Shown one piece after another: positions 40,636 through 53,635 of a stretch of 64,000 nucleotides of DNA (its first letter is position 1; every line of letters starts with the position of its first letter). Where the stretch lies: NCBI RefSeq assembly GCF_900100865.1, contig NZ_LT627734.1, forward strand, positions 682,001-746,000, given 5' to 3'. A program made the position numbers and the translations under genes. The notes below the pieces were generated by a model. That model saw only the letters and a program-made list of their open reading frames with translations. It was not told the origin of the DNA and did not search any database. This DNA is from Candidatus Aquiluna sp. UB-MaderosW2red. Its GTDB lineage: Bacteria; Actinomycetota; Actinomycetes; Actinomycetales; Microbacteriaceae.

Positions 40636-41484
40636 ATGACCTCCAACCAAAAGCCAACGCGTTCAGAGCAGCGCGAAGAAGCCAGGGCAAGGGCCAAAGC
40701 GCAACGCGAGCTGAATGCTAAAAAGGAAAAACGCACCAAGTTATTGGTGCAGCTCTCGGTGGTTGTGGTAGCACTGGGCATCGTCGGGGGTGTTGGCGCG
40801 GTAATCGCGATTGATTCAGCCAATCAGGCCGATGCGCCGGTTGTTGGCGAAATTCCCGCCAACCTAACCGCTTTAGGCGGTCTGAAGGTTGGTATTGGGC
40901 TGCAAGCTTTTACCTTAGACAAGACCCCGACTCCAGATTCCACTGACCCAATTCCTGAAATCGTGATGTATGTGGACTACCAGTGCCCGGTTTGCCAGGC
41001 GTTTGATGTCCCCAACGAAGCCCAACTGCGCTCTTGGGTTGACACTGGTGTAGCTACCCTTGAGATTCGCCCAATCTCCTTTTTGGACCGCGCTTCTTTG
41101 AACGCCTACTCCTCGAGGGCAACCAATGCCTCAATGTGCATTGCAAATTTTGAGCCAGATTCCTTCTTTGATTACCACGGCATCCTGATGAATAACCAGC
41201 CCGCTGAGCAGACCGAAGGGGCAACGGACGACGAGCTGTTTGCTTTTGCGCAGGATGCCGGTGCTGGAACCGAAGAGGTTAAGGGTTGCATCCAGGCCAA
41301 GAGTTTTGGAGACTATATTGAGCAGCACACTCAAAAGGTCTTAAATAATCCGCAAGACGGCATCAGTGTCTCGGGAACCCCCACCATCTTGGTCAACGGC
41401 AAGCAGTACACCTGGGCAACCGGTGAAGAGCTTGTGAGTCCTGAGAACTTCGCTCAATTCGTTCAGTCGGCTTCAGCTGAATAG
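40636..41484 (+). CDS. membrane-anchored DsbA-like thioredoxin-fold protein
   Basis: The 282-residue protein has a highly charged cytoplasmic N-terminus (about 1-35), a membrane segment (LLVQLSVVVVALGIVGGVGAV) and an extracellular DsbA fold with active site CPVC (Cys117/Cys120, DYQCPVCQAF) and the cis-Pro loop GTPTILVNGKQY. It probably oxidises or isomerises exported protein thiols. It is transcribed alone, with ATG preceded by GGAAATCA-like purine sequence. Confidence 0.87.
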   Translation: MTSNQKPTRSEQREEARARAKAQRELNAKKEKRTKLLVQLSVVVVALGIVGGVGAVIAIDSANQADAPVVGEIPANLTALGGLKVGIGLQAFTLDKTPTPDSTDPIPEIVMYVDYQCPVCQAFDVPNEAQLRSWVDTGVATLEIRPISFLDRASLNAYSSRATNASMCIANFEPDSFFDYHGILMNNQPAEQTEGATDDELFAFAQDAGAGTEEVKGCIQAKSFGDYIEQHTQKVLNNPQDGISVSGTPTILVNGKQYTWATGEELVSPENFAQFVQSASAE

Positions 41485-41958
41485 CTAGCCTTCGACCTTC
41501 ATGGTTACGGCTAGCTGATTGTTATTTTCATTTCCTATTGCATCTATCAGGAGTGCCTCCCAGGTGCAATTGGTGTTTCGCATACCCTTCGGTAAAAAGC
41601 CAGTGCCTTCAAAGTTCAAGTCCGTGAGCTTCCCAACCCATCTGCCAGTCCAACTCGGTGAGCCGGGCAAAATTGCAAAGCTCGCGAACTTGGCTGAAGC
41701 GCCTTTAATTCCAAGATGGATAATCATTCTTTTTTCGCCATTGTCCATGCAAATAAGATCTGCCTGCTCCAAGTCGCGATCATCACTGATTGAGCCTGAG
41801 AAGCTAAAGACCTGATCGGCGCCTGAAATATCGAACTCAGTTTGGGAGACCTGAAACTCGCTAATAACAGGGGGAGTCGAATCGTTTTGGTAGATGAAAT
41901 AAGCGACACCGGCGGCGATTGCCAAAGATGTATAAACCTGCCAAGACCTAATCTTCAA
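41485..41958 (-). CDS. exported or membrane-anchored protein of unknown function
   Basis: The 157-residue protein starts with a short basic tip and one hydrophobic segment (VYTSLAIAAGVAYFIY), then a beta-rich extracellular part (VISEFQVSQTEFDISGADQ, SFSGSISDDRDLEQADLIC) with two cysteines that could form a disulfide. The strand pattern is like a bacterial Ig-like domain. No family recognised. It converges on the DsbA-like gene with no gap, so it may be one of its clients; this is only a guess from position. Confidence 0.6.
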   Translation of the reverse strand: MKIRSWQVYTSLAIAAGVAYFIYQNDSTPPVISEFQVSQTEFDISGADQVFSFSGSISDDRDLEQADLICMDNGEKRMIIHLGIKGASAKFASFAILPGSPSWTGRWVGKLTDLNFEGTGFLPKGMRNTNCTWEALLIDAIGNENNNQLAVTMKVEG

Positions 41959-42078
41959 TTTGCTCCTAAGTGTGCCCCAAGGCTACCTGCCCGTGGGGGC
42001 CATGTTCGCTAAAAGTGATGACCCCTAGCGCTAGGTTGAGCCAATAAAAGTTAGGTAACCAAAATAAGGAGGCTAGGC

Positions 42079-42385
42079 ATGGAATTTCAGTTTAGGGGTG
42101 GAGCTACAACCTATTGGGGTACAGCACTTTTGGGAGCGCTAATCACAATTTTATCCCTCGGCTTTTTGTACCCATTTGCACTTGTGCTGAATGAGCGCTG
42201 GCGAGCCAAGCACTCATTCATTGGGGGGCGTCAGCTTGAATTCTCTGGTTCTGCTTTTGGCTTATTGGGTCGGTGGATTCTTTGGTTAGTACTTATTTGT
42301 TGTGACTCTTGGAATCTACTCGTTTTGGGTAATTCCAAGACTGCAGAAATGGAAGTGGGAGTTCACAAACTTTGCTACCAAGTAG
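42079..42385 (+). pseudogene. DUF898-family membrane protein broken by a 1-base frameshift
   Basis: The gene starts at ATG 42079 after AGGAGG and reads well to about residue 73 (MEFQFRGGATTYWGTALLGA, AKHSFIGGRQLEFSGSAFG), all matching the small actinobacterial DUF898 (YjgN-like) membrane family. After ATT at 42295 the frame goes wrong (LICCDSWNLLVLGN). In the next frame, from 42302, the family's expected end appears: VTLGIYSFWVIPRLQKWKWE up to a TAG at 42383-42385. Removing one base in ATTTG (42295-42299) restores a 101-residue protein. As read, a chimeric 108-residue product ending at 42405 would be made. It may be a real mutation, a sequencing error or a programmed shift. Confidence 0.8.
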
Positions 42386-42476
42386 GTTTTTTGTACCTAG
42401 GGTAAAAATCCCTCAACTACAGCGGTAAACTCTCAAACTTGCTTCAAAATTGGCGGCTCGAGCTTTTTTTACTTAG

Positions 42477-43892
<1,416 letters not shown>

Positions 43893-43994
43893 CCAAAGGT
43901 CAGCTTCACAATTAGCGTTAGGGGCTTCATTTTGAGAACCACTTTGTGCTTTAGGGCCCGAAGTTCTTGGGGCTTGAGGCGATAGGAGGGGTGA

Positions 43995-44600
43995 ATGATT
44001 GAGTCATGCCTTGAGTGCGGGACGAGTAAAAAGCCAGCGGTTTGGTTTTGCGTGAACTGCAATGCTCTAAAGGATCTCTCGGGTGAGATGGCCGACCTTG
44101 ATTCCAGCGAGTGTCAAGCAGCCGAACCGACAGTCGCTTGCACAGAGTGCGGGAGCCATGTTTTTGAAGAATCCGAATCCTTCTGTCCAGCTTGCGAGTC
44201 TTTACAAGGCAGAAATCAAGCGAATTCTTACCACGCAAATTCAGGTGCCGAGCTCACTAACCAGGCTGATGCCAGACCCTCACCTCGAAAGGGCGTCAAA
44301 AAGACCCTCATAGTTCTGGGAACACTGCTCTCAATTTTCTCGCTCATTCTTGGGTCTACTCTCTCAGTGGGATTTGGCGGCAGCCCGGTGGACAACGATA
44401 GGGCTTGTGTTTATTTCTCTGACGGCTACCAGCTAGCCAAGTCGGAAAATGGTTCTGCCGATAGCATGGGCGCCTGGCGAGCAGCGGCAAGGGATGGGGC
44501 AAGCTTTGCCACCGGCCAGCTCGCATTTGAATTGCAAAGGTTTGCGGCCGGTTCAGATGATGGGGAAGCCATCGCGAGTATCACGCGGCTTTGTCGTTAG
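43995..44600 (+). CDS. double zinc-ribbon membrane protein
   Basis: The 201-residue protein starts after AGGAGGGG at ATG 43995. It has two zinc ribbons at the N-terminus (CLECG...CVNC and CTECG...CPAC, residues 5-75), a Lys-rich linker, one membrane segment (TLIVLGTLLSIFSLILGST), and an extracellular helical C-terminus ending CR. I do not recognise a named family. It lies just outside the integrated element, whose cargo holds two more zinc-ribbon membrane proteins of similar layout. Confidence 0.65.
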   Translation: MIESCLECGTSKKPAVWFCVNCNALKDLSGEMADLDSSECQAAEPTVACTECGSHVFEESESFCPACESLQGRNQANSYHANSGAELTNQADARPSPRKGVKKTLIVLGTLLSIFSLILGSTLSVGFGGSPVDNDRACVYFSDGYQLAKSENGSADSMGAWRAAARDGASFATGQLAFELQRFAAGSDDGEAIASITRLCR

Positions 44601-44707
44601 GGTTCAATGGTTTTAGGGTGAGAGGCTAGTAGCTACCTATCTGAATGCTGAAGTTCAGCCTGGCTTGTTGAGCTGATAGGCTTCCGAGCGTAACAAAGGG
44701 GATTTGT

Positions 44708-44773
44708 CCCCAGGCCGACTTGGCGCAATGGTAGCGCACCACTCTTGTAAAGTGGGGGTTACGGGTTCAAGTC
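44708..44773 (+). repeat. attL: left copy of the 66-bp direct repeat
   Basis: Identical to 53236-53301, from CCCCAG before the tRNA through CAAGTC in the T-loop. Crossover happened somewhere inside this stretch. The identity stops at 44774, where the T-arm 3' strand should follow. Confidence 0.9.
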
Positions 44774-44820
44774 ACACTCACTTCGTATCGCGTATTGCTG
44801 CGCAATCCCGCGTCGGCTCT
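44714..44820 (+). pseudogene. interrupted tRNA-Thr(UGU) copy at attL
   Basis: The first 60 nt match the intact tRNA-Thr exactly, including the TGT anticodon. Then 33 nt (44774-44806) intervene, containing a hairpin (ATTGC-TGC-GCAAT, with CGCG on each side). After this comes CCCGCGTCGGCTCT, nearly the normal 3' end (CCCGTAGTCGGCTCT). The fold would have a giant T-loop, so the gene is almost surely dead. A good promoter (TTGAGC, 17 nt, TAACAA around 44668-44696) lies upstream and is presumably the original host promoter. Confidence 0.75.
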
Positions 44821-44882
44821 GGGGTGTAGCAACTACTTGGTTGTAGGGGCTTTTTATGGATAGCCCAGGCAAGTCTTGAATT

Positions 44883-44900
44883 GGTAGCAGCTGGTAGCAG
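44883..44900 (+). repeat. left arm-type site (GGTAGCAG x2)
   Basis: GGTAGCAG occurs twice with a 10-bp pitch (18 bp in all) between attL and the integrase gene. The same 18 bp recur in the same orientation at 53040-53057. Paired copies spaced by one helical turn at both ends fit arm-type integrase binding sites. Confidence 0.7.
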
Positions 44901-44958: not shown

Positions 44959-46101
44959 ATGTCACAGATTACTAGGCGTAAAGCAACCGTATTCCCCTAT
45001 CGGGGCAAGTGGCGGGTGCAGTATGTGGACACTTTTGGGAGACAGCGCACCCAAACCGCGGAAACTCGTAAAGATGCTTACCTGCAGCTAGCTGAAATAG
45101 AAGGCCAGGTTCGTAAAGGGTTTCTAAACCTCACCCCAGAACAGATACCTAGCCTTGGTCAGTATCTGGACTACTGGCTGCAAAAGCGCGAACAAGAACT
45201 AAATCCAACAACCCATTGGTGCTACCAGTCTCACGTTGCCAATAATTTGAAGCCGCTGATGGGAAATTTGCGGCTAGATAGTGTTTCAGCCAGACAAATC
45301 CAGGACCTTTATAGCTACCTGTTAGAGGAGCGAGGGTTCAAAAGCGGCACAGTAAGGAAAGTGCACTCTATTTTGAGCTCAGCCTTCAAATTAGCCTTGA
45401 AACAAGGGCTAATTACCTATTCGCCACTTGCTGGCGTTTCCCAGCCAAAGTTTGAACAAAAGCAAATAGAAGTCTTCACAAAACAGGAGATGGAATGCCT
45501 CCTCAGGCATGCCTCTCAGAAGCCTTCAAAGCCCCATCTGAGGTGGTTACTCGCGCTTCGCTATGGATTGCGACAAGGGGAGGTTTTAGGTCTTAAGTTT
45601 GGCGATTTTGACCTTATTTCTAGGACTGTAAAAATCAACCGAACTGTCAATTCATTGCCTGGCAAAGGAGTGGTTGAACTGCCCCCAAAATCTAAGCACT
45701 CTCAAAGGACCATCCCGCTTGACGCGAAGGTAATTCAGCTAATTAGTCAAATACAAGACGGCAGCGGGTTTGTGTTTACTGCAGAAGATGGCTCAGCTTT
45801 GGAAGCAACAGTTGACCAGCGGCGATGGCGAGCATTATTGGTTGAATCTGGAGTTCGGCACCTGCCACTGCATTCAGCCAGGCACTCCGTTGCCACTCAT
45901 TTAGTTAATGGGGGAGTAAACCCTCGGATTGTGCAATTGCTGCTAGGGCATTCATCAGCTGCCTACACTCTGGCTACCTATGTCCACCCAAATACCCTAG
46001 ATATTGCTCACGCTCTGGGAATTGATAGCCCTGGTGTGGAAATACCAATGCTGTTAGCTGACAATAAGAGCGACATACGCCCGCCCAAGGGTGGAAATTG
46101 A
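44959..46101 (+). CDS. int: tyrosine recombinase/integrase of the element
   Basis: The 380-residue integrase has an N-terminal AP2-like arm-binding domain (residues 1-60, FPYRGKWRVQYVDTFGRQRT), a SAM-like core-binding domain (about 65-155), and the catalytic domain. All catalytic residues are visible: Arg205 (GLRQGEVLGL), Lys246 (KSKHSQRTIPL), His305 and Arg308 (LHSARHSVATHL), His331 (LLGHSS) and Tyr341 (ATYVHP). ATG follows GGAGG with good spacing. The gene lies 185 bp inside attL and reads into the element, the usual place for tRNA-targeting integrases. Confidence 0.95.
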   Translation: MSQITRRKATVFPYRGKWRVQYVDTFGRQRTQTAETRKDAYLQLAEIEGQVRKGFLNLTPEQIPSLGQYLDYWLQKREQELNPTTHWCYQSHVANNLKPLMGNLRLDSVSARQIQDLYSYLLEERGFKSGTVRKVHSILSSAFKLALKQGLITYSPLAGVSQPKFEQKQIEVFTKQEMECLLRHASQKPSKPHLRWLLALRYGLRQGEVLGLKFGDFDLISRTVKINRTVNSLPGKGVVELPPKSKHSQRTIPLDAKVIQLISQIQDGSGFVFTAEDGSALEATVDQRRWRALLVESGVRHLPLHSARHSVATHLVNGGVNPRIVQLLLGHSSAAYTLATYVHPNTLDIAHALGIDSPGVEIPMLLADNKSDIRPPKGGN

Positions 46102-46398
46102 TGCTCAGAGTCTACTAATAGCGCTGATTATTGAGGAAGGGCATAGGTGGCCTAGTAGCCGTTAACCGCAAAACCTAGGGGCCGATAAGGGGGTGCCACA
46201 CGCTGTTAGTAGATAAGAGAGGAGGCAGTAGCCAAGGCTCTGTCAAGGACAATTTTGGGCATAAGCAACTAGCGCTTGAGACGCCAGCCTTCACTTGATG
46301 CGCCTTGAGTAAAGCGACGCACTTTCAATGCATTGCGTGCATCAAAGGTCTCAGCTGGCTATGCTTTTGGTAAAGTTTTTTGGGGGCGGGGGGAGTAC
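46102..46398. other. about 300 bp without a gene after the integrase
   Basis: No credible coding frame is seen. The stretch has several short stop-rich segments and a purine-rich run (46380-46396) that is the ribosome site of the next gene. A segment GGCCGATAAGGGGGTGCC near 46180 resembles TGCCGATAAGCG near 53194 at the right end, but the match is short. Confidence 0.4.
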
Positions 46399-47772
46399 GT
46401 GAAAAACTGTATTGCATGCGACGAAGAAATTAAAAGCGCTGCGCTCCTGTGCAAGCACTGTGGGACGAAGCAGGACGACCCTAGCTACCTAGTTGCGGCT
46501 CAACCAGCTTTAGAAGAAGAAAACCAACCCAACAATCTTCAGTCAGTCAATGCTGATGAAGCGTCTGTGGGCCATGACCGTAAAGCTGAATCACCAACCA
46601 CAAATGATTCGCTTGATTTTTTCTGCCCAGATTGCCTCACGTGGCAATCTAAGTCCTGGAAATACTGTGATAACTGCGGCAATCTTATTTACGTTTCAAG
46701 CGTCCCCATTCCCGCTGCAAAAGACAATTCGGGTGATGATTCCTTACCTAGATTGGGCGAGGTTGGACCTTCAAGGTTTCCAAAGCGGCATCGCAAGGCG
46801 GGCTTGACAGTACTAGGGGTGATTGTTCTCATTGCCATAAGCGTCGCTGTTCTAAATCCATTCGGGCTACTTATCGCGGGCAGCGAGAATGCAGCTACCA
46901 ATGACGACGCTACCAAGACCAATTCTGAAGCGTCCTACGAGCTTTCGCCAGAGGAGATGCAAGCGGTCGCAGAAGAAAACAGCGAGCTTATTGATAGGGT
47001 GCTGAAATCCGCAATTGTCAAAATTACGGGTGACTATGTTGCTGGCGAGGGCTGTGCCGATGTTTGCTCGCGCATTTCTGTCAAGCTTGAATTTCGGTCG
47101 GATGAACTATACGAATTAAACAAGCTTTTTCTCGGGGGTCAATTCTCAGTTGTGGATTCCAGCGATAAAAGGGTGTTGCTTGAAGCGCCGATTCTTTCGC
47201 TGTCCACACTAAAAATCTTTGAAGAAGTTACCTTGGAGTCTTTTTATCTTCCTGGCGCTAATCTTGCCGCAAATATTCATATTGGCCCCTCCGATGAAAG
47301 AGACATTGATGCTTTTCTCAGCGCTAGTGCTCTCAGCATTAATGAGTTTGCTTTTTTGCAAGATTCGTCTTTGAGATTGGACAGTAGCAACAAGCTGCCA
47401 AGGTTGGCCAAGTTGGTGAGCAGTCTCATAACTAGTGGAATCTGTGAAAATTCAACCATTGAGGTTTATGAGAGTGAGACTTGGTGCACGGGTGACTTGG
47501 GTGGAGAATCCTACACGCTCATAGTCGCAAATACAGGGGAGAGTATTACTGGCCAAATTGCTTATGCGGCTGACTCGCCTGAGCAACTTGTGTTTGTGGG
47601 AAGCGGCTGGTCTTTCATAGCAGGGGGAATGACTTTATCTCCCAGAATTTTGTACGAAGTTGAAAAGATGGGAACCTTCGTGGTCTTGGGTGGACTATCC
47701 CTCTGCCCTGCACTCGGGGCGACTGAAGATATGCCGATGGAGACATGCTTTACGCATGCGATGAGCAATTAG
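46399..47772 (+). CDS. zinc-ribbon membrane protein with large extracellular part
   Basis: The start is set at GTG 46399, after a strong GGGGGAG, because the first zinc ribbon then begins at once (NCIACDEEIKSAALLCKHCG); an ATG at 46333 has no such site. The 457-residue protein has a second ribbon (CPDCLTWQSKSWKYCDNCG, about 80-100), a membrane segment (GLTVLGVIVLIAISVAVLN, about 135-155), then about 300 extracellular residues with four or more cysteines (GEGCADVCSR, GICENSTIE, ETWCTGDLG). The topology, cytosolic zinc ribbon, single helix, large outer domain, recalls TcaA-type sensors, but I cannot assign a family. It is element cargo. Confidence 0.65.
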   Translation: MKNCIACDEEIKSAALLCKHCGTKQDDPSYLVAAQPALEEENQPNNLQSVNADEASVGHDRKAESPTTNDSLDFFCPDCLTWQSKSWKYCDNCGNLIYVSSVPIPAAKDNSGDDSLPRLGEVGPSRFPKRHRKAGLTVLGVIVLIAISVAVLNPFGLLIAGSENAATNDDATKTNSEASYELSPEEMQAVAEENSELIDRVLKSAIVKITGDYVAGEGCADVCSRISVKLEFRSDELYELNKLFLGGQFSVVDSSDKRVLLEAPILSLSTLKIFEEVTLESFYLPGANLAANIHIGPSDERDIDAFLSASALSINEFAFLQDSSLRLDSSNKLPRLAKLVSSLITSGICENSTIEVYESETWCTGDLGGESYTLIVANTGESITGQIAYAADSPEQLVFVGSGWSFIAGGMTLSPRILYEVEKMGTFVVLGGLSLCPALGATEDMPMETCFTHAMSN

Positions 47773-47790
47773 GGCGAGGACTGGGGGCAC

Positions 47791-48243
47791 ATGATGAGGT
47801 GTGAATTTTGCAATTCACCTGCAAGTGAAGCTGCACGTTACTGCAGAGATTGCGGCGCCTCTCTTCGTGATGCAAAGAGAGCATCTGCCATCAAAGCTGC
47901 TTCCCCAATAAAAGCGAGCAATACGTCGTCTGCGAGCCTTGCAGGTAAGTCACCCTCGTTCTGGATTTCAATTTTAGGCTTCGGCGCAATCCTAGTGATT
48001 TTGGCAGGTGGTCTTATGAGTAACGACAGCGGCGGGAATGGCGGCAGTCAAGCGCCGACGTCTGCCTTCTACGACGCAGGTTACAATTTTGGTCGCAATA
48101 ATATTGGTAGAAATACGGACCGACAAAGTGCCTACAATCAATGCAATGGTATGGCCAACACGGTGAAATTCAACAATCCAAGTGCAACAAATTCAGAGCT
48201 AACAGATTGGGTCAGGGGCTGCATGGCCTACGTGGCGAACTAG
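47791..48243 (+). CDS. small zinc-ribbon membrane protein
   Basis: The 150-residue protein has one zinc ribbon (CEFCNSPASEAARYCRDCG, residues 4-23), a Ser/Ala/Lys linker, one membrane segment (FWISILGFGAILVILAGGLM) and an outer tail with YDAGYNFGRNNIGRNT and two cysteines (CNGMANT, GCMAYVAN). Tails of the type YxxGYxFG...C...GC occur in several uncharacterised actinobacterial membrane proteins. It follows the larger zinc-ribbon gene by 18 bp and is probably co-transcribed. ATG is preceded by GGGGG. Confidence 0.65.
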   Translation: MMRCEFCNSPASEAARYCRDCGASLRDAKRASAIKAASPIKASNTSSASLAGKSPSFWISILGFGAILVILAGGLMSNDSGGNGGSQAPTSAFYDAGYNFGRNNIGRNTDRQSAYNQCNGMANTVKFNNPSATNSELTDWVRGCMAYVAN

Positions 48244-48669
48244 TAACATTGACACAAAAGTGAAACGAAAAAATTGCAATAAAGCCTGCCAATAATTTGA
48301 CCCTTGCCCCATGATTCTCTTTGGCCATCCAGTTATGAAAACTTTCTGTGTTGTTTGCGAGCTGCGGTAGGTAGAAGTGGTAGCTCATGCACTAGTGGTT
48401 ACTCATTGGCCTAATAGGTGTGCTTAAGAGGCTGAAATCGCCAGTAGCGAACAGGCTGTGTCTCGGGCGTTTCTTCTCAGGGTGCCTGGCAGTATAGGAG
48501 TATCCCTTCAAGGGCAGTGGAGTAGTAAGAGTAGTTGCCTTGCAGGCTTGTGGGAATGGCACTGAAGACCGTCTAAGCCAGTGACGGATGGGTGTGCAAA
48601 GTCGGCCTAGAGAATCTGGGGCATCAGCCAGCCCTATGAAGTCGTCGCAAATCAATTCAAAGCGTTGCT
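48244..48669. other. non-coding stretch upstream of the replication gene
   Basis: No convincing coding frame is present. Short open frames on both strands overlap one another and lack ribosome sites. The region directly precedes the rolling-circle Rep gene, where such elements often keep their double-strand origin, but I cannot point to a nick site. An inverted pair GGAGTATCCCTTCAAGGG-like sequence lies near 48495-48515. Confidence 0.4.
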
Positions 48670-49626
48670 TTGGGTGGTTTGCGGCACTCAAAGCACCAGT
48701 TCCTAAGGTGCGACAAATTGACACGTTCTTCCAGCGAATCAAAAGCGGGCAAAGAGCAAAAGAGTATTTACTTATCTACTTCCACTTCTCCTACCTCCAA
48801 TGCTGCACTAGCAAAAAAAGAGATAGAGAGTCTCAGAATTGCTATGTGTTCCTTTACTTCTATTAGGGGAGTGACTAGTTGCGGTATGAAACTCCTTCTC
48901 GTCAAGGTATCTCTCGGTAAACGCGAAGTTGTTGAAGTAACTGACCATTGCAAGAACAAGCATGTTTGTCCATCATGCATGAATTACCAGTACTGGAAAT
49001 TCGGAAAGCGACTTGGGGTAGCAATTGGTTCTTGGCTTGACCTTGGAGGGGCAGTCTTCACGCAGACACTAACTCTTCCCAACAGAAACAAGAAACTCAT
49101 TTATAAGCACGAAGACCTAGCACGAGTATGGACAGCGATGGGGAAGACAAAGAGGTACTCCTCCCTCAAACGAAAATCCGGCATGAAACAGAGCTTGAGG
49201 GTTCTGGAGGATGTTCTTGGCATCAAATATTCATTTCCCCACTTCCATTTGACTTGGTTTTTTCAAGAGCGGCTACAAATCCAGGAAATGGAGGCTTTTT
49301 CCAGAGAAGTTGCCCAGCTTTGGCAGCTTTCGGCCGATAAATGCGGAGTTCGTGGAGTTCAATCAGTGCAACAGTGGTCAGGCCCTATACAGAGTTCAAT
49401 AACTGGATACTGCAACTACCTTTTCAAGCACGGGTACTTTGACCTGAATTTCCAACCCAAGGACCCAGGTAATTCAAATAGGGGGCTAAAGCCACTTGAC
49501 TACCTAAGGGTTCTAGTGGCCACTGGGGATTATGAGATGCTCAAGACTTGGTTAGATTACGAACAGGCGACCTCGCATCGCCACAGAATCCAGCCATCAA
49601 AAGGATTCCAATGGGGGAAAGAATAG
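48670..49626 (+). CDS. rolling-circle replication initiator (Rep_1-like, HUH)
   Basis: The frame encodes up to 318 residues. It shows the cysteine pattern of pIJ101/pUB110-type Rep proteins: SCG (Cys71), then HCKNKHVCPSC (Cys94, Cys100, Cys103). The HUH-type metal motif is FPHFHLTWF (His191 and His193), and GYCNYLFKHG (Tyr247/Tyr250) is the probable nicking tyrosine region. The true start is unclear; the first 58 residues look non-conserved and an ATG at 48844 would still keep Cys71. Such proteins nick one strand and start rolling-circle replication. Here the gene sits in an element with an integrase, so the element probably replicates when excised. Confidence 0.8.
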   Translation: MGGLRHSKHQFLRCDKLTRSSSESKAGKEQKSIYLSTSTSPTSNAALAKKEIESLRIAMCSFTSIRGVTSCGMKLLLVKVSLGKREVVEVTDHCKNKHVCPSCMNYQYWKFGKRLGVAIGSWLDLGGAVFTQTLTLPNRNKKLIYKHEDLARVWTAMGKTKRYSSLKRKSGMKQSLRVLEDVLGIKYSFPHFHLTWFFQERLQIQEMEAFSREVAQLWQLSADKCGVRGVQSVQQWSGPIQSSITGYCNYLFKHGYFDLNFQPKDPGNSNRGLKPLDYLRVLVATGDYEMLKTWLDYEQATSHRHRIQPSKGFQWGKE

Positions 49627-49924
49627 CCACTCACTGACCGTCACCTTTCTTCCGTGGACAACAGCCTCAAGGTAAAACTGTTGAAAATAGCCTCTTGAGA
49701 TATCCGATACCTGCTCTCCACATGGGATGCCCAAACTACTCAAGTCATGTCAGCAAAATTAGTGGCGGCTTTGCACCGCCAGGCGATTAACTATTGTGGC
49801 CAGATTCGGGAAAAGTGCTGGCCCAGCCTGCAATCAGCCGCTACTGATTGCGGGCACTCTGTCAATTGCCAAAGTTGTCATTCTCTGGCTTCTGTATTAC
49901 GATCTAACAATTGATTGGGGAATC
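49627..49924. other. about 300 bp without a gene after the replication gene
   Basis: A small hairpin lies at 49763-49781 (TGGCGG/CCGCCA around CTTTGCA). There is no following U-tract. An open frame runs through the right half in frame with the next gene but lacks a ribosome site. The hairpin could belong to a replication origin; nothing else supports this. Confidence 0.4.
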
Positions 49925-50758
49925 ATGAAAAAACTGGCAGTTTTATTAGTTGCTGCATTATTTTTGGCTGGCTGTACAGACCAAGGAAGCGATGGCTCTT
50001 CTCCATCTGCTTCTCAAAATGCGAATGCCGAAAGCCCCGAGAGTACCCCAGCTCCCAGCTCAAGCCAACAACTGGACCAACCCGAACCTGAAACCGAAGT
50101 ATTTGACAGCTTAGGTGCAGCAAATGTGGTCCTTGATAGCTTGAATGCCAACAGCAGCTTTACCTGGGGCGCACAAGGAGAAGATGACTACGAAGGCGCT
50201 CCAGTCCTAATCGCCACGCCTGAAGGGGTCTTTTCAGAAGCTAAAGAGGGGTGCATAGTTCTTGCCTGGGACTCGGTTGATTATGACTATCAGGAACGTC
50301 TCGCCCTCTGGGAGGGCACAACCGACTTACCTGGGCAAGCAGTTTGGATGGGAGCTTCAGAAGGTCTACTCGTTGAACTTCGTGCTTTCAGCCCCGAGGC
50401 TGAGTGTTATTTAGATGCCAAGGAGGCTCTGGGTTGGGACCCTGAACTTAGTCCTAGTTTTATTTTTCCAGAAGCAATTTCTGATGGGGGTTCCTCCCAG
50501 CAAAACAACACTCAGCCGACACCTGAGATGGTGAAGATGCCAAACCTGATTAATTCCACTGAGTACGACGCCACGACGTGGCTGCGGAACAACGGTTATA
50601 AATTTAGCGTTTCAGCCAACTATGGATTTAATCCTAAGCTCTCACTTTGCATTGGCGGTAAGGGGCTCGTGACTGGCCAAACGCCAAGAGCAGGTTCTGA
50701 GGTTAAGAACCAAGCTGGAACAAGCGTGAGGTTGAATGTTGATTGCGAGTGGCGCTAG
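49925..50758 (+). CDS. lipoprotein with C-terminal PASTA-like domain
   Basis: The ATG at 49925 follows TGGGGAATC and gives a 277-residue lipoprotein with lipobox LFLAGC (Cys17). A Ser/Pro/Gln linker follows (about 20-60), then a middle domain with two cysteines (EGCIVLAWD and ECYLDAKEAL). The last 75 residues are PASTA-like: VKMPNLINSTEYDATTWLRN, then GLVTGQTPRAGSEV and VRLNVDC. PASTA domains bind peptidoglycan or beta-lactams. This is element cargo and is probably cell-surface; its purpose is unknown. Confidence 0.7.
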   Translation: MKKLAVLLVAALFLAGCTDQGSDGSSPSASQNANAESPESTPAPSSSQQLDQPEPETEVFDSLGAANVVLDSLNANSSFTWGAQGEDDYEGAPVLIATPEGVFSEAKEGCIVLAWDSVDYDYQERLALWEGTTDLPGQAVWMGASEGLLVELRAFSPEAECYLDAKEALGWDPELSPSFIFPEAISDGGSSQQNNTQPTPEMVKMPNLINSTEYDATTWLRNNGYKFSVSANYGFNPKLSLCIGGKGLVTGQTPRAGSEVKNQAGTSVRLNVDCEWR

Positions 50759-50807
50759 GGGGCTCGGCAGAACAGTGTTAGACCATGGCAAAGGAAAGGC
50801 TGAGTGA

Positions 50808-51260
50808 ATGGCAATAAAAAAGAAATACGAAGACCTGATAACCGTTGGTGGGCCTGCAAGTTCCAACTTGGAAAATTCAATTCTCACCCTTAACAAGGCT
50901 GGATTCAAAAAAGTCTCACAGAGGGCCCCTCTAATGAGAGTGACTGGGGACTGGAAACCGATGATTGGGACCTTACATGGTGACATCACCCTTGACTTCG
51001 CAGAGTTAGAGGGCAACACCAAAATCACCATCACTGTGGTGGCTGCTGTAGACAATGCTTATGCACTCATCAGTAGCCCTGGAGAACGGATAAAGAATAA
51101 ATTCCTTGAGGAGTTTGGGAAAATTTCACTGGAGCCTAGTTCTCAGGTAAAACCAGACGTTACTGCAAGGTTGGCCGAATTGGAAGAGCTTAGAACTAAT
51201 GGCGTAATTTCAGATGAAGAGTACTCTCAGGCCCGAATCAACATAATTTCTCGCAATTAA
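50808..51260 (+). CDS. SHOCT-domain protein
   Basis: The 150-residue cytosolic protein has a beta-rich N-terminal domain (TGDWKPMIGTLHGDITLDFA and ITITVVAAVDNAYALISSPG) and a C-terminal SHOCT motif (RLAELEELRTNGVISDEEYS). SHOCT is a short oligomerisation-type tail found in many unrelated proteins. The function is unknown. It is cargo of the element, 49 bp after the PASTA lipoprotein. Confidence 0.7.
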   Translation: MAIKKKYEDLITVGGPASSNLENSILTLNKAGFKKVSQRAPLMRVTGDWKPMIGTLHGDITLDFAELEGNTKITITVVAAVDNAYALISSPGERIKNKFLEEFGKISLEPSSQVKPDVTARLAELEELRTNGVISDEEYSQARINIISRN

Positions 51261-51435
51261 AGGTTTTAGCCTTTTCTGTAAATTCGGGCGAGACCAAGCC
51301 TTTTCCGACTTGCGAAGCGAACAGTTCAGTAAGGAAATTTGCAAACGTCTTTAGTGACTGATGCACTCTAAAAAAAGCTTTGAATAACTGAGCCGCTTTA
51401 GCGATGCATTCAGAACAGCGTTGAGCTCTTCTTCA

Positions 51436-52404
51436 TTAGCCCAGGTCAGATTCATCAATCAGGAATGTGACCGAGCTTCCGAAGAAGTCGTGCTTATAGG
51501 TGAACTCGTAGAATGAGAGGGCTGGGACGTCAAAGGCGACTTCTCCTCTTAGCTTTGAGCCTGCGGGGATGGAACCATCAAGGTCACCTTTCACATCGGC
51601 AAAGTAACCAACGCTGTACTGATAAAGGTCTGAGCCTTTAAGGTCAAAACTAGCTAGCGATGAGACACTTGCTTCCTCATCGGAAGTGTTCTCAATTGTC
51701 ATGTCCAGAATTAAGTAAAAGTCATTATCAGGTCCGCTGAACGAGTCCTCCTCGGAGGACCTAACCGAGTTGAGCGTGATGGTAAAGCCAGGTCCTTCAG
51801 CAGTATCCCCGACTCCCAACCCCACGCTTGAGTTGCTCTCTTCTGGGGCAGCTGACGAGGCTATATTCAGGTCGGATGCGGCAATTCGGAAAGTAATTGA
51901 ATCTGCGAATAAGTCATGAGAGTAGAGAAGAGAGTAGAACTCTAATTCGGGCACATCAAATGCTATTTCCCCTCGCAATTTTGACCCTGGTGCAATTTCG
52001 CCTTCAAGCCCACCTTTGGTGTCTGCGAAATAATCTTGGTCATACATGTAGTCGTCAGAACCTTGAAGCTCAAAACCGAAGATGCTACTGACGCTGTGTG
52101 AGTCATTGCCCGTGTTCTCAATAGTCATGTCAATTAGGAGAATGAAGTCATTGTCTGGCTCTGAAAATCCTGACTCTACTGTCGTGCGAACAGAGTTGAT
52201 TATTACCGTGTGGTCGCTGGCCACGTAAAGCTCCCCAACTGCCCAAGGTCCATTGCCCTGGGAGGTTGATTCTTGTTGACTACTTGATTCACTGGCGGCA
52301 CTATTGGCTGCATCCTCAGGCTCATTTGCCCCCGATTCGCTGGAGACCACGCAACCTGACAGAGTCAGGAGCATCGCGGCTCCAAGTGCTAGATATTTCC
52401 CCAA
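51436..52404 (-). CDS. lipoprotein with tandem DUF4352-like domains
   Basis: The 322-residue lipoprotein has lipobox LTLSGC (Cys18), an acidic Ser/Glu/Asn linker, then two DUF4352-like (telokin-like) beta domains. The halves are clear paralogs: GFSEPDNDFILLIDMTIENT against SFSGPDNDFYLILDMTIENT, and PGSKLRGEIAFDVPELEFYS against PAGSKLRGEVAFDVPALSFY. The protein arose by internal duplication. DUF4352 lipoproteins are common on actinobacterial and firmicute surfaces and their ligands are largely unknown. It is the only cargo gene on the minus strand, between convergent and divergent neighbours. Confidence 0.75.
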   Translation of the reverse strand: MGKYLALGAAMLLTLSGCVVSSESGANEPEDAANSAASESSSQQESTSQGNGPWAVGELYVASDHTVIINSVRTTVESGFSEPDNDFILLIDMTIENTGNDSHSVSSIFGFELQGSDDYMYDQDYFADTKGGLEGEIAPGSKLRGEIAFDVPELEFYSLLYSHDLFADSITFRIAASDLNIASSAAPEESNSSVGLGVGDTAEGPGFTITLNSVRSSEEDSFSGPDNDFYLILDMTIENTSDEEASVSSLASFDLKGSDLYQYSVGYFADVKGDLDGSIPAGSKLRGEVAFDVPALSFYEFTYKHDFFGSSVTFLIDESDLG

Positions 52405-52501
52405 TTGATTCTCCCCCTTGTTTTATCAATTACCGTTAATATACAAACGGGGGGCCACGAGGTCAACCAGAGCAATTAAACATTTAGGGGGCTTCAAAAT
52501 T

Positions 52502-52858
52502 ATGAAGACAAGACCAATTATTTCTGTAATCACAATGCTGCTTGGCTTGGGATATGCGATTCTAGTTACTACCTCAACAGGCTCAGCATTTGGCGACGCT
52601 GCAGCTGAAGGTGATGCCGAGGCAATCGGAGCAGGTCTGGGCGTTGCACTGCTGTTGCCACACATCCTGTTGACATGGCTTGCGGTAGTTTTCAACATAC
52701 TGGGCTACTTCACCAGAGTTCCTGGGTTCACATTGACTGCAGCCATTATTTACACAGTTGCAGCTTTCCTGGGCTTCTTCAACATCATTTTCCTCATCCC
52801 AATCGTGATTCTTGCCTTCATCTCTTGGGTGCAAGAGAAAAAGCGCAAAACTTCATAG
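52502..52858 (+). CDS. small membrane protein with three helices
   Basis: The ATG at 52502, after AGGGGG, gives 118 residues with three or four membrane segments (ISVITMLLGLGYAILV, GVALLLPHILLTWLAVVFNI, FTLTAAIIYTVAAFLGFF, and FLIPIVILAFISWV) and a basic tail KKRKTS. I do not recognise a family. A rho-independent terminator follows at once, so it is the last cargo gene. It is divergent from the DUF4352 lipoprotein. Confidence 0.65.
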   Translation: MKTRPIISVITMLLGLGYAILVTTSTGSAFGDAAAEGDAEAIGAGLGVALLLPHILLTWLAVVFNILGYFTRVPGFTLTAAIIYTVAAFLGFFNIIFLIPIVILAFISWVQEKKRKTS

Positions 52859-52902: not shown

Positions 52903-53235
52903 CATGCCCACAACTTTTTCCATTTATCAATTCTGTTGGTATCGCAGACTGGGGGCGACCCAGGAGTCCTGCTCACCCCTTTTTGAGCGGGCTACCCCTA
53001 AAACGCCCCTGCAGCCAGGCTGCTTTGTCTTCAAATTGTGGTAGCAGCTGGTAGCAGGGTTTGTCTTTGGGGTGCATTAATGTAGAAGGTAACAACTAAA
53101 CATGGGGACACTGCACGCGGCGCTCGCTGCGACGTAAGAGGGGGTCATAGGGGGAGAATCCCCCTAAATCCAAGGGAAATGCTTACAACTAGGTGCCGAT
53201 AAGCGATTATCCATTAGGCTATGGCGGGGCTAAAA
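52903..53235. other. right-end recombination region of the element
   Basis: About 330 bp hold no gene. The stretch contains the right arm-type double repeat (53040-53057), the inverted GGGGACACTGC (53104-53114) that matches 44927-44937 on the other strand, and a weak promoter-like pair (TTACAA at 53184, TTATCC at 53207) before the intact tRNA. The 53126-53165 part is rich in runs of G and C. Confidence 0.6.
53040..53057 (+). repeat. right arm-type site (GGTAGCAG x2)
   Basis: Identical to 44883-44900 and in the same orientation. Lies about 180 bp inside the right att copy. Confidence 0.7.
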
Positions 53236-53301
53236 CCCCAGGCCGACTTGGCGCAATGGTAGCGCACCACTCTTGTAAAGTGGGGGTTACGGGTTCAAGT
53301 C
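53236..53301 (+). repeat. attR: right copy of the 66-bp direct repeat
   Basis: Identical to 44708-44773. It continues into the normal T-arm 3' strand and acceptor stem, so this side keeps the working tRNA. Confidence 0.9.
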
Positions 53302-53313
53302 CCGTAGTCGGCT
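53242..53313 (+). tRNA. tRNA-Thr (UGU), intact copy at attR
   Basis: A full cloverleaf is seen. Acceptor GCCGACT pairs with AGTCGGC, the D-arm is present, the anticodon loop CTTGTAA has anticodon UGU between CCACT and AGTGG, and the T-arm is ACGGG-TTCAAGT-CCCGT. Discriminator base U; CCA is not encoded. Its 5' part and upstream region come from the element side of the crossover, so the element may supply its promoter. Confidence 0.93.
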
Positions 53314-53314
53314 C

Positions 53315-53635
53315 TTATTTAGAAATCGATTTAGTTTCACGAGCTGGCTGAGCCAGCTGAACTACCAAGATAATCCAACCCACTACTGGAACCAGTAGCC
53401 AAAAAAAGTTACCCATTCCTTTGCCGGCGTCGCGCAGCCTTCTTGCAGAAGCGGCGGCCAGGGGAATAATGGTGATTATTGCGAGGAAATTAGAAAGCCC
53501 GCCCGAGATAACTCCCAGCGCAGCCGATGCAACCGTCAGGGCTAGAAAAAAATACCAATAGTCAGCTCGAGTGGTCTTTCCTGTAAATGTCGAGAATTGG
53601 GCAAATGCCAGCTTGGTCGCAGTCCAGAGTTCCAT
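53315..53635 (-). CDS. DUF805 membrane protein
   Basis: This 106-residue protein begins with the family sequence TATKLAFAQFSTFTGKTTRADYW and has three membrane segments and a conserved ARRLRDAGKGMGNFFWLLVP. DUF805 proteins are small inner-membrane proteins of unknown role. Its stop lies two bases from the 3' end of tRNA-Thr and converges on it. It is outside the mobile element and divergent from aspA. Confidence 0.85.
   Translation of the reverse strand: MELWTATKLAFAQFSTFTGKTTRADYWYFFLALTVASAALGVISGGLSNFLAIITIIPLAAASARRLRDAGKGMGNFFWLLVPVVGWIILVVQLAQPARETKSISK

Follow-up and report, generated by a model that had tools for sequence, protein, structure and literature searches.

A tyrosine-integrase island that appears to have replaced the promoter side of the only tRNA-Thr(UGU) gene in a Candidatus Aquiluna genome

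Introduction

Most tDNA islands carry the 3' end of the tRNA gene and leave the host promoter in place. The locus considered here raises the question of what happens on the other side of such a gene. In the 64,000-nt stretch of Candidatus Aquiluna sp. UB-MaderosW2red that was analysed (the window), an ~8.5-kb tyrosine-integrase island is bounded by a dead 5' copy of tRNA-Thr(UGU) at 44708-44773 and by the intact tRNA-Thr(UGU) gene at 53242-53314. Which part of the gene came with the island, and whose promoter does the working copy use? From the comparisons below, the working copy appears to have exchanged its own promoter for one that came with the island, the insertion having taken the rarer direction. 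In two species of the genus, a single-copy and probably essential tRNA would thus seem to have come under foreign control.

Geometry of the island

The two ends share an exact direct repeat of 66 nt (44708-44773 and 53236-53301, start-to-start spacing 8528), the longest among the four repeat families reported in the window. ARAGORN called the intact tRNA-Thr(UGU) at 53242-53314, left the left copy uncalled, and found no tRNA gene between the two island ends; the Rfam tRNA model gave the left copy 27.7 bits, below the cut-off of 29, and its folding was nothing unusual (z -0.72). Joining the flanks in silico yielded an intact tRNA from the host flanks (attB) and none from the element ends (attP). 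The integrase ORF begins 185 nt past the broken left copy on the same strand and is one whole ORF outside the repeat, and the intact call lies at the far end, which agrees with the original prediction that the intact tRNA stands away from the integrase. By the spacing and orientation criteria of the Islander classes, as given in PMC4383910, this is the arrangement of a 5'-fragment tDNA island, namely an intact tDNA with a same-strand 5' fragment upstream, 2-200 kb apart, and a tyrosine integrase gene within the interval. The features are as follows, where G000 is the genome of the window, the other G numbers are relatives and P_el is the upstream block of the intact copy.

44601-44713, + strand: probable native upstream region of tRNA-Thr(UGU), with a -10-like TAGGCT at 44677-44682 (CTGATAGGCTTCC match to the G010 leader)
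44708-44773, + strand: attL, dead left 5' copy of tRNA-Thr(UGU), identical to 53236-53301 (repeat search, ARAGORN, Rfam)
44773-44806, + strand: 34-nt interruption between the T-loop and the 3' T-stem strand of the left copy (sequence; nearly the same in G014)
44807-44820, + strand: degenerate tRNA 3' end borne by the element, CCCGCGTCGGCTCT (sequence; same in G014)
44882-44900, + strand: arm-type-like tandem repeat TGGTAGCAG N TGGTAGCAG, left end (genome-wide pattern search)
44959-46101, + strand: tyrosine recombinase (integrase), 380 aa (Pfam PF00589, Phage_integrase, E 4.5e-24)
46333-52858, no strand assigned: cargo, seven ORFs scanned (Pfam only)
53039-53057, + strand: arm-type-like tandem repeat, right end (genome-wide pattern search)
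53147-53241, + strand: P_el, putative element-borne upstream/promoter block, with a -10-like TAGGCT at 53215-53220 (matches in G014 and G011; not in G010)
53236-53301, + strand: attR core, the 66-nt repeat, with the crossover tentatively placed near the T-loop end at 53294-53300 (repeat search; crossover place from reasoning)
53242-53314, + strand: intact tRNA-Thr(UGU), the genome's only one (ARAGORN, Rfam)
53302-53314, + strand: 3' part of the tRNA outside the repeat, host side (DUF805 and fumarase-family genes next)

The tRNA-Thr(UGU) gene is one of 42 tRNA genes in the genome, in which the Thr anticodons UGU, GGU and CGU have one gene each. No tRNA other than the UGU one is known to read ACA codons, which make up 37 of the 5434 codons in the 11 window ORFs taken as genes, so that the gene, being single-copy, is probably essential.

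The DUF805 and fumarase-family genes 3' of the intact tRNA are found near the same tRNA in several relatives too; directly 3' of the tRNA stands a fatty acid desaturase gene in IMCC13023 (L033:10546-11634) and the DUF805 gene in the window (53315-53635). On the other side, the interval 41485-44600 between a thioredoxin-like gene (40636-41484) and attL holds a glutamate dehydrogenase gene (42486-43892) and a small zinc-ribbon-like protein (43995-44600). Since the thioredoxin-like gene lies much closer to the tRNA in several relatives, a further insertion may account for this ~3.2 kb. The zinc-ribbon protein just outside attL and that of the island are weakly similar (E 0.016). Among the seven cargo ORFs, two had Pfam matches above the cut-off (PASTA; DUF4352/DUF5067), three had weaker ones just below it (double-zinc-ribbon or SHOCT) and two were matchless; none of the matches was to a conjugation or virion family.

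A simple truncation at nt 60 does not describe the left copy. After TTCAAGT, 34 foreign nt (44773-44806) are followed by CCCGCGTCGGCTCT (44807-44820), which resembles the 3' end of the tRNA itself, CCCGTAGTCGGCTCT. The chance of meeting the 9-mer of this 3' remnant within 45 nt is about 1.7e-4 by a simple estimate. To judge from these letters, the island carries pieces from both ends of the tRNA gene, of which the 5' piece alone is in good order.

A sister element in a second species

At E<=1e-60 the integrase was found in two of 398 family genomes, G000 and Candidatus Aquiluna sp. IMCC13023 (G014), both with the interrupted left copy, and at E<=1e-40 the 396 order genomes gave one match besides G000, in G549 at 34% identity. 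Tyrosine recombinase matches at E<=1e-10 occur in 15 of the 22 genus genomes, none more than 32% identical apart from G000's own and that of G014; the nearest match in G015 and in G016 is at 27%, and G011 has none at this threshold, which is the sense in which these three are said below to be without this integrase. In a scan of genome contigs, IMCC13023 was the one close relative, beside four distant ones at 26-38%. In viral contigs no integrase relative was confirmed and the left-junction DNA pattern gave 0 matches; all matches in phage and plasmid collections were below 60% identity.

The integrase of IMCC13023 is identical to that of the window at 319 of 358 residues (89%). Its island, of 6.2 kb, has the dead copy next to the integrase and, at the opposite end, the intact tRNA; the left copy is interrupted by nearly identical 34 nt and followed by an identical 3' remnant, and the right copy is intact. 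The cargo is different, comprising a trypsin-like protein and two ORFs without Pfam match. Because the sister element repeats the geometry, this is taken to be a property of the element and not an accident of one genome.

The tRNA 5' sequence differs between the species and agrees within each. Both copies in G000 have T7, a short D-loop and G at -1; both in G014 have C7, a longer D-loop and A at -1. Position 7 pairs with position 66 in the host part (T-A in G000, C-G in G014), and hence a working copy requires a matching 5' part. The agreement may go back to donors that had the same tRNA as the host of each island, or the copies may have become alike later. As both copies are identical in each species, the tRNA 5' part is not assignable to the element by its letters.

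Origin of the DNA upstream of the intact copy

The origin of the right end was examined with the last 257 nt before the intact tRNA as query against the 22 genus genomes, five of which gave matches: G000 itself, G014 (87% over 251 nt at the right copy, 97% over 94 nt at the left copy), G011 (98% over 130 nt), G016 (75% over 251 nt) and G015 (96% over 71 nt). P_el is absent from G010. For comparison, the neighbouring thioredoxin-like host gene is 68-70% identical between G000 and G014, G011, G016 and G015; with 98% taken as 127/130, the binomial chance at 0.70 is 2e-16. Since identities of 87-98% stand against 68-70% in the neighbouring host gene, the window's right-end DNA is taken to have moved between species, the excess over the host-gene identity being small for the G016 right end alone.

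Further evidence lies in a short repeat. TGGTAGCAG occurs four times in the window against 0.30 expected, as two tandem pairs, one near each island end. The exact pair TGGTAGCAGNTGGTAGCAG has two sites in the 1.66-Mb G000 genome, both at island ends (reversed control 0), and two in G014, likewise both at island ends. With two mismatches allowed, the 22 genus genomes gave five matches, all at the tRNA-Thr(UGU) locus (two in G000, two in G014, one in G016); the G016 pair has two mismatches and counts by its location only, because the reversed control at that laxity gives three matches in the 22 genomes. These tandem repeats look like integrase arm-binding sites. The earlier attribution of the upstream region and the 5' 60 nt of the intact tRNA to the element is accordingly upheld for the upstream region, by the sister element in G014, the identity of 87-98% and the arm-like repeats, and would follow from geometry for the 60 nt, the two copies being identical.

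The DNA before the dead copy is of another kind. CTGATAGGCTTCC, a 13-nt exact match around TAGGCT, is common to the leader of G010 (score 28, 0 of 1000 shuffles), a relative without this island, and because of this likeness the upstream region of the dead copy is probably native. It has no match to the element block beyond TAGGCT, nor matches in the relatives like those of the right end. The original prediction had placed the native promoter at TTGAGC (44668-44673) and TAACAA (44691-44696), 17 nt apart; the letters are there, and as a sigma-70 pair they agree with the consensus at 7 of 12 positions; a sigma-70 scan requiring 9/12 gave no promoter at either copy. TAGGCT at 44677-44682 is the better supported candidate for the -10 element than TAACAA.

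In P_el, TAGGCT starts 27 nt before the intact tRNA gene. It occurs in one of the 41 other tRNA upstreams of the genome, which rules it out as a general tRNA -10 element there. The looser TA[AG]nnT was found within -45..-1 in 21 of 21 tRNA-Thr(UGU) upstreams, a raw count without chance control, the 21 rows being G000 and G014 with two copies each, 15 further genus genomes, G033 of another genus and contig C19 of G010; of the 22 genus genomes, G006, G009, G013 and G019 stand outside this comparison as they gave no close tRNA-Thr(UGU) match. Both leaders have a GGGG-N6-CCCC hairpin just before the tRNA, at 44698-44711 and 53226-53239 (GGGGATTTGTCCCC and GGGGCTAAAACCCC), in sequences otherwise unlike.

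Traces of the island in relatives

The relatives compared for an empty site were all of other species. Relatives among these have no island at this tRNA, and G010 has a native-like leader. In a tree of the neighbouring gene, G010 is sister to the clade of G011, G014, G015 and G016 (support 100/99 and 100/100; midpoint root).

P_el persists in three relatives without this integrase. G011 has a near-copy of 53111-53241 upstream of its tRNA and, ahead of P_el, further right-end DNA with a single arm unit; upstream of this remnant, a 29-nt stretch matches the integrase gene (0 of 200 shuffles as good, against the left end of either element). G016 holds 250 nt of the right end with a degenerate arm pair, and G015 retains 71 nt. 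The integrase search in their gaps was not above chance, with 73 and 123 of 200 shuffles as good for G016 and 10 and 190 of 200 for G015. It had been proposed that an empty site whose upstream DNA equals 53100-53240 would mark the right flank as host DNA. Taken literally, G011 presents such DNA (98% over 130 nt) and G016 a weaker version (75%); as both carry the element right end, and G011 also a shred of the integrase gene, they are read as decayed occupied sites and not as empty ones. The three genomes, G015 included, are read as sites where the island decayed and its promoter block stayed.

Outside this clade, the leader of G001, CTATGGCGGGGTTAATCCC (L043), resembles P_el over 23 nt at nearly the same offset (score 26, 0 of 1000 shuffles), with no match to other right-end DNA; it is possibly a source of P_el or an old leftover.

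Two side observations concern these loci. G011 and G016 (L036, L037) have ~600 nt in common between the thioredoxin-like gene and the element remnant, which by eye resemble a reverse-strand lipoprotein gene; in G014 and G015 the gap is short and lacks them. In G010 (L034, L035), contig C19 has a full tRNA-Thr(UGU) and contig C53 begins with 52 nt of a second copy; the desaturase-like sequences that follow the two are different (77% identity over 312 nt), the cause being either a mixed assembly or a real duplication; contig C53, which starts inside the tRNA copy, was used in the locus and desaturase comparisons and kept outside the upstream rows and the DNA search database.

Proposed mechanism and alternative histories

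It is very probable that an island whose attP holds P_el and the first ~60 nt of the tRNA replaced the promoter side of the host tRNA-Thr(UGU) gene. On the strength of the comparisons above, three points can be regarded as established: the geometry, its recurrence in a second species and, for the species of the window, that the upstream DNA is of foreign origin. In the proposed course of events, attP would bring P_el together with roughly 60 nt from the 5' end of tRNA-Thr(UGU), and the integrase would join this to the host gene by recombination, probably in or beside the T-loop. The resulting attL would retain the host promoter and the host 5' part, run on into island DNA and be dead; in attR, P_el and the 5' part from the island would be followed by the last ~13 nt of the host gene, giving the sole working gene, presumably transcribed from P_el. 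Reading the promoter directions from the order of the parts, P_el in the excised circle would face through the broken tRNA into int, and after integration the host's old tRNA promoter would face int. When the island decays, P_el would have to stay, the single tRNA depending on it, which would explain G011, G016 and G015.

One end of the repeat is at the T-loop, the other 6 nt ahead of the gene. A crossover near the T-loop is suggested by the former end, by the differences TTCAAGT/TTCAACT/TTCGAGT and by analogy with 3'-rebuilding islands, in which the repeat runs from the crossover to the gene end.

A broader reading, put forward tentatively and held to be somewhat less probable than not, is that a cassette of promoter plus 5' tRNA trades promoters at each integration, the tRNA receiving the island's and int the host's, and is unlosable on decay, so that repeated integration permanently rewrites the control of an essential tRNA in the genus. 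Its leftovers, on the same tentative footing, would be the P_el blocks of G011, G016 and G015 and the one ahead of the dead copy of G014.

That block in G014, where the left copy is already preceded by P_el, could also mean that P_el is native to its clade. P_el would then be the tRNA-Thr promoter of G011, G014, G015 and G016, captured there and carried to the window's species. This is unlikely, and it is a variant on the origin of P_el under which the island still replaces the 5' side in G000. All four clade members do have P_el, G014 before both copies, and the leader of G001 resembles it over 23 nt at almost the same offset; the sister genome G010, however, has a different leader, like the left upstream region of G000, P_el is contiguous with element right-end DNA in G011 (single arm unit) and in G016 (degenerate arm pair), and G011 has an integrase-like shred. 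The two-ended remnant at the left copy allows a different history, rather doubtful though slightly more probable than a native P_el, in which the element first rebuilt the 3' end beside int as usual, the 34-nt interruption then destroyed that end, and the right copy could replace it since a whole tRNA with a promoter was already present on attP. Such a past would leave the degenerate 3' end with GTCGGCTCT beside int, as seen in both elements, and int 3' of the tRNA fragment, which is the usual arrangement. The 3' remnant is just 14 nt, however, and no element with an uninterrupted 3' end was found, the two integrase-bearing genomes among the 398 of the family (E<=1e-60) both having the interruption. 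As an account of how the present state arose, this history is compatible with the replacement of the promoter side by the island.

A last reading, in which the right flank belongs to the ordinary host DNA and the left copy arose by segmental duplication or is a tRNA fragment of unrelated origin, is highly improbable. Such an origin would suit G011, which has nearly the same upstream DNA (98% over 130 nt) without a complete element, but it conflicts with the integrase, with the arm-like repeats at both ends, with the same structure in a second species and with an identity far exceeding that of the neighbouring host gene. Replacement of the promoter side by the island remains the preferred reading and is the one compared with known systems below.

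Relation to known integration systems

The island belongs to a class that is known and rare. Of the 3919 islands in Islander, 3760 have a 3' tDNA fragment and 159 a 5' one (PMC4383910), which bears out the premise that most tRNA islands rebuild the 3' end. Islands of the 5' class as described there are alike in having an intact tRNA at one end, a displaced 5' fragment upstream in the same orientation and the integrase between; measured against that class description, the present island adds the ~95-nt upstream block, the degenerate 3' end and the persistence of the block in relatives without the integrase. The lasting of an element promoter after loss of the island and the double-ended tRNA remnant may be new; a literature search by titles and abstract openings returned nothing on this island or on lasting replacement of a tRNA promoter, which is weak evidence. 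Traces of the island seem to outlast the island itself, and the cost of 5' integration and the rarity of the class are testable in small genomes.

Among archaeal systems, pTN3-like integrases are described as using the 5' half of the tRNA gene, with the rebuilt tRNA expressed from the integrase promoter, and as seldom met in bacteria (PMC8371274); pTN3 of Thermococcus has its int disrupted, and the tRNA that it rebuilds is cut off from the original promoter (PMC5495485). The separation of a rebuilt tRNA from its original promoter is common to those elements (PMC8371274, PMC5495485) and the present one, in which the att site lies in the tRNA 5' part by geometry and the tRNA is parted from its original promoter by sequence comparison. 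In contrast to pTN3, where integration disrupts int, int is whole here.

Streptococcal ICEs inserting at the 5' end of protein genes (rbgA, ebfC) include some that, much as proposed here, replace the upstream region of the target, promoter included (PMC4701971); these target protein genes, whereas the present island targets a single-copy tRNA gene. In the tRNA-dependent lysogeny of mycobacteriophages, a separate phage tRNA takes the place of the host tRNA, which is not rebuilt (PMC10865867). As reported there, an element sits in a single-copy actinobacterial tRNA gene and the host then depends on element DNA, as would hold here. The present element differs in that ARAGORN found no separate same-isotype tRNA gene on it; the phages have a short common core, while here the core is of 66 nt and the tRNA is rebuilt at attR.
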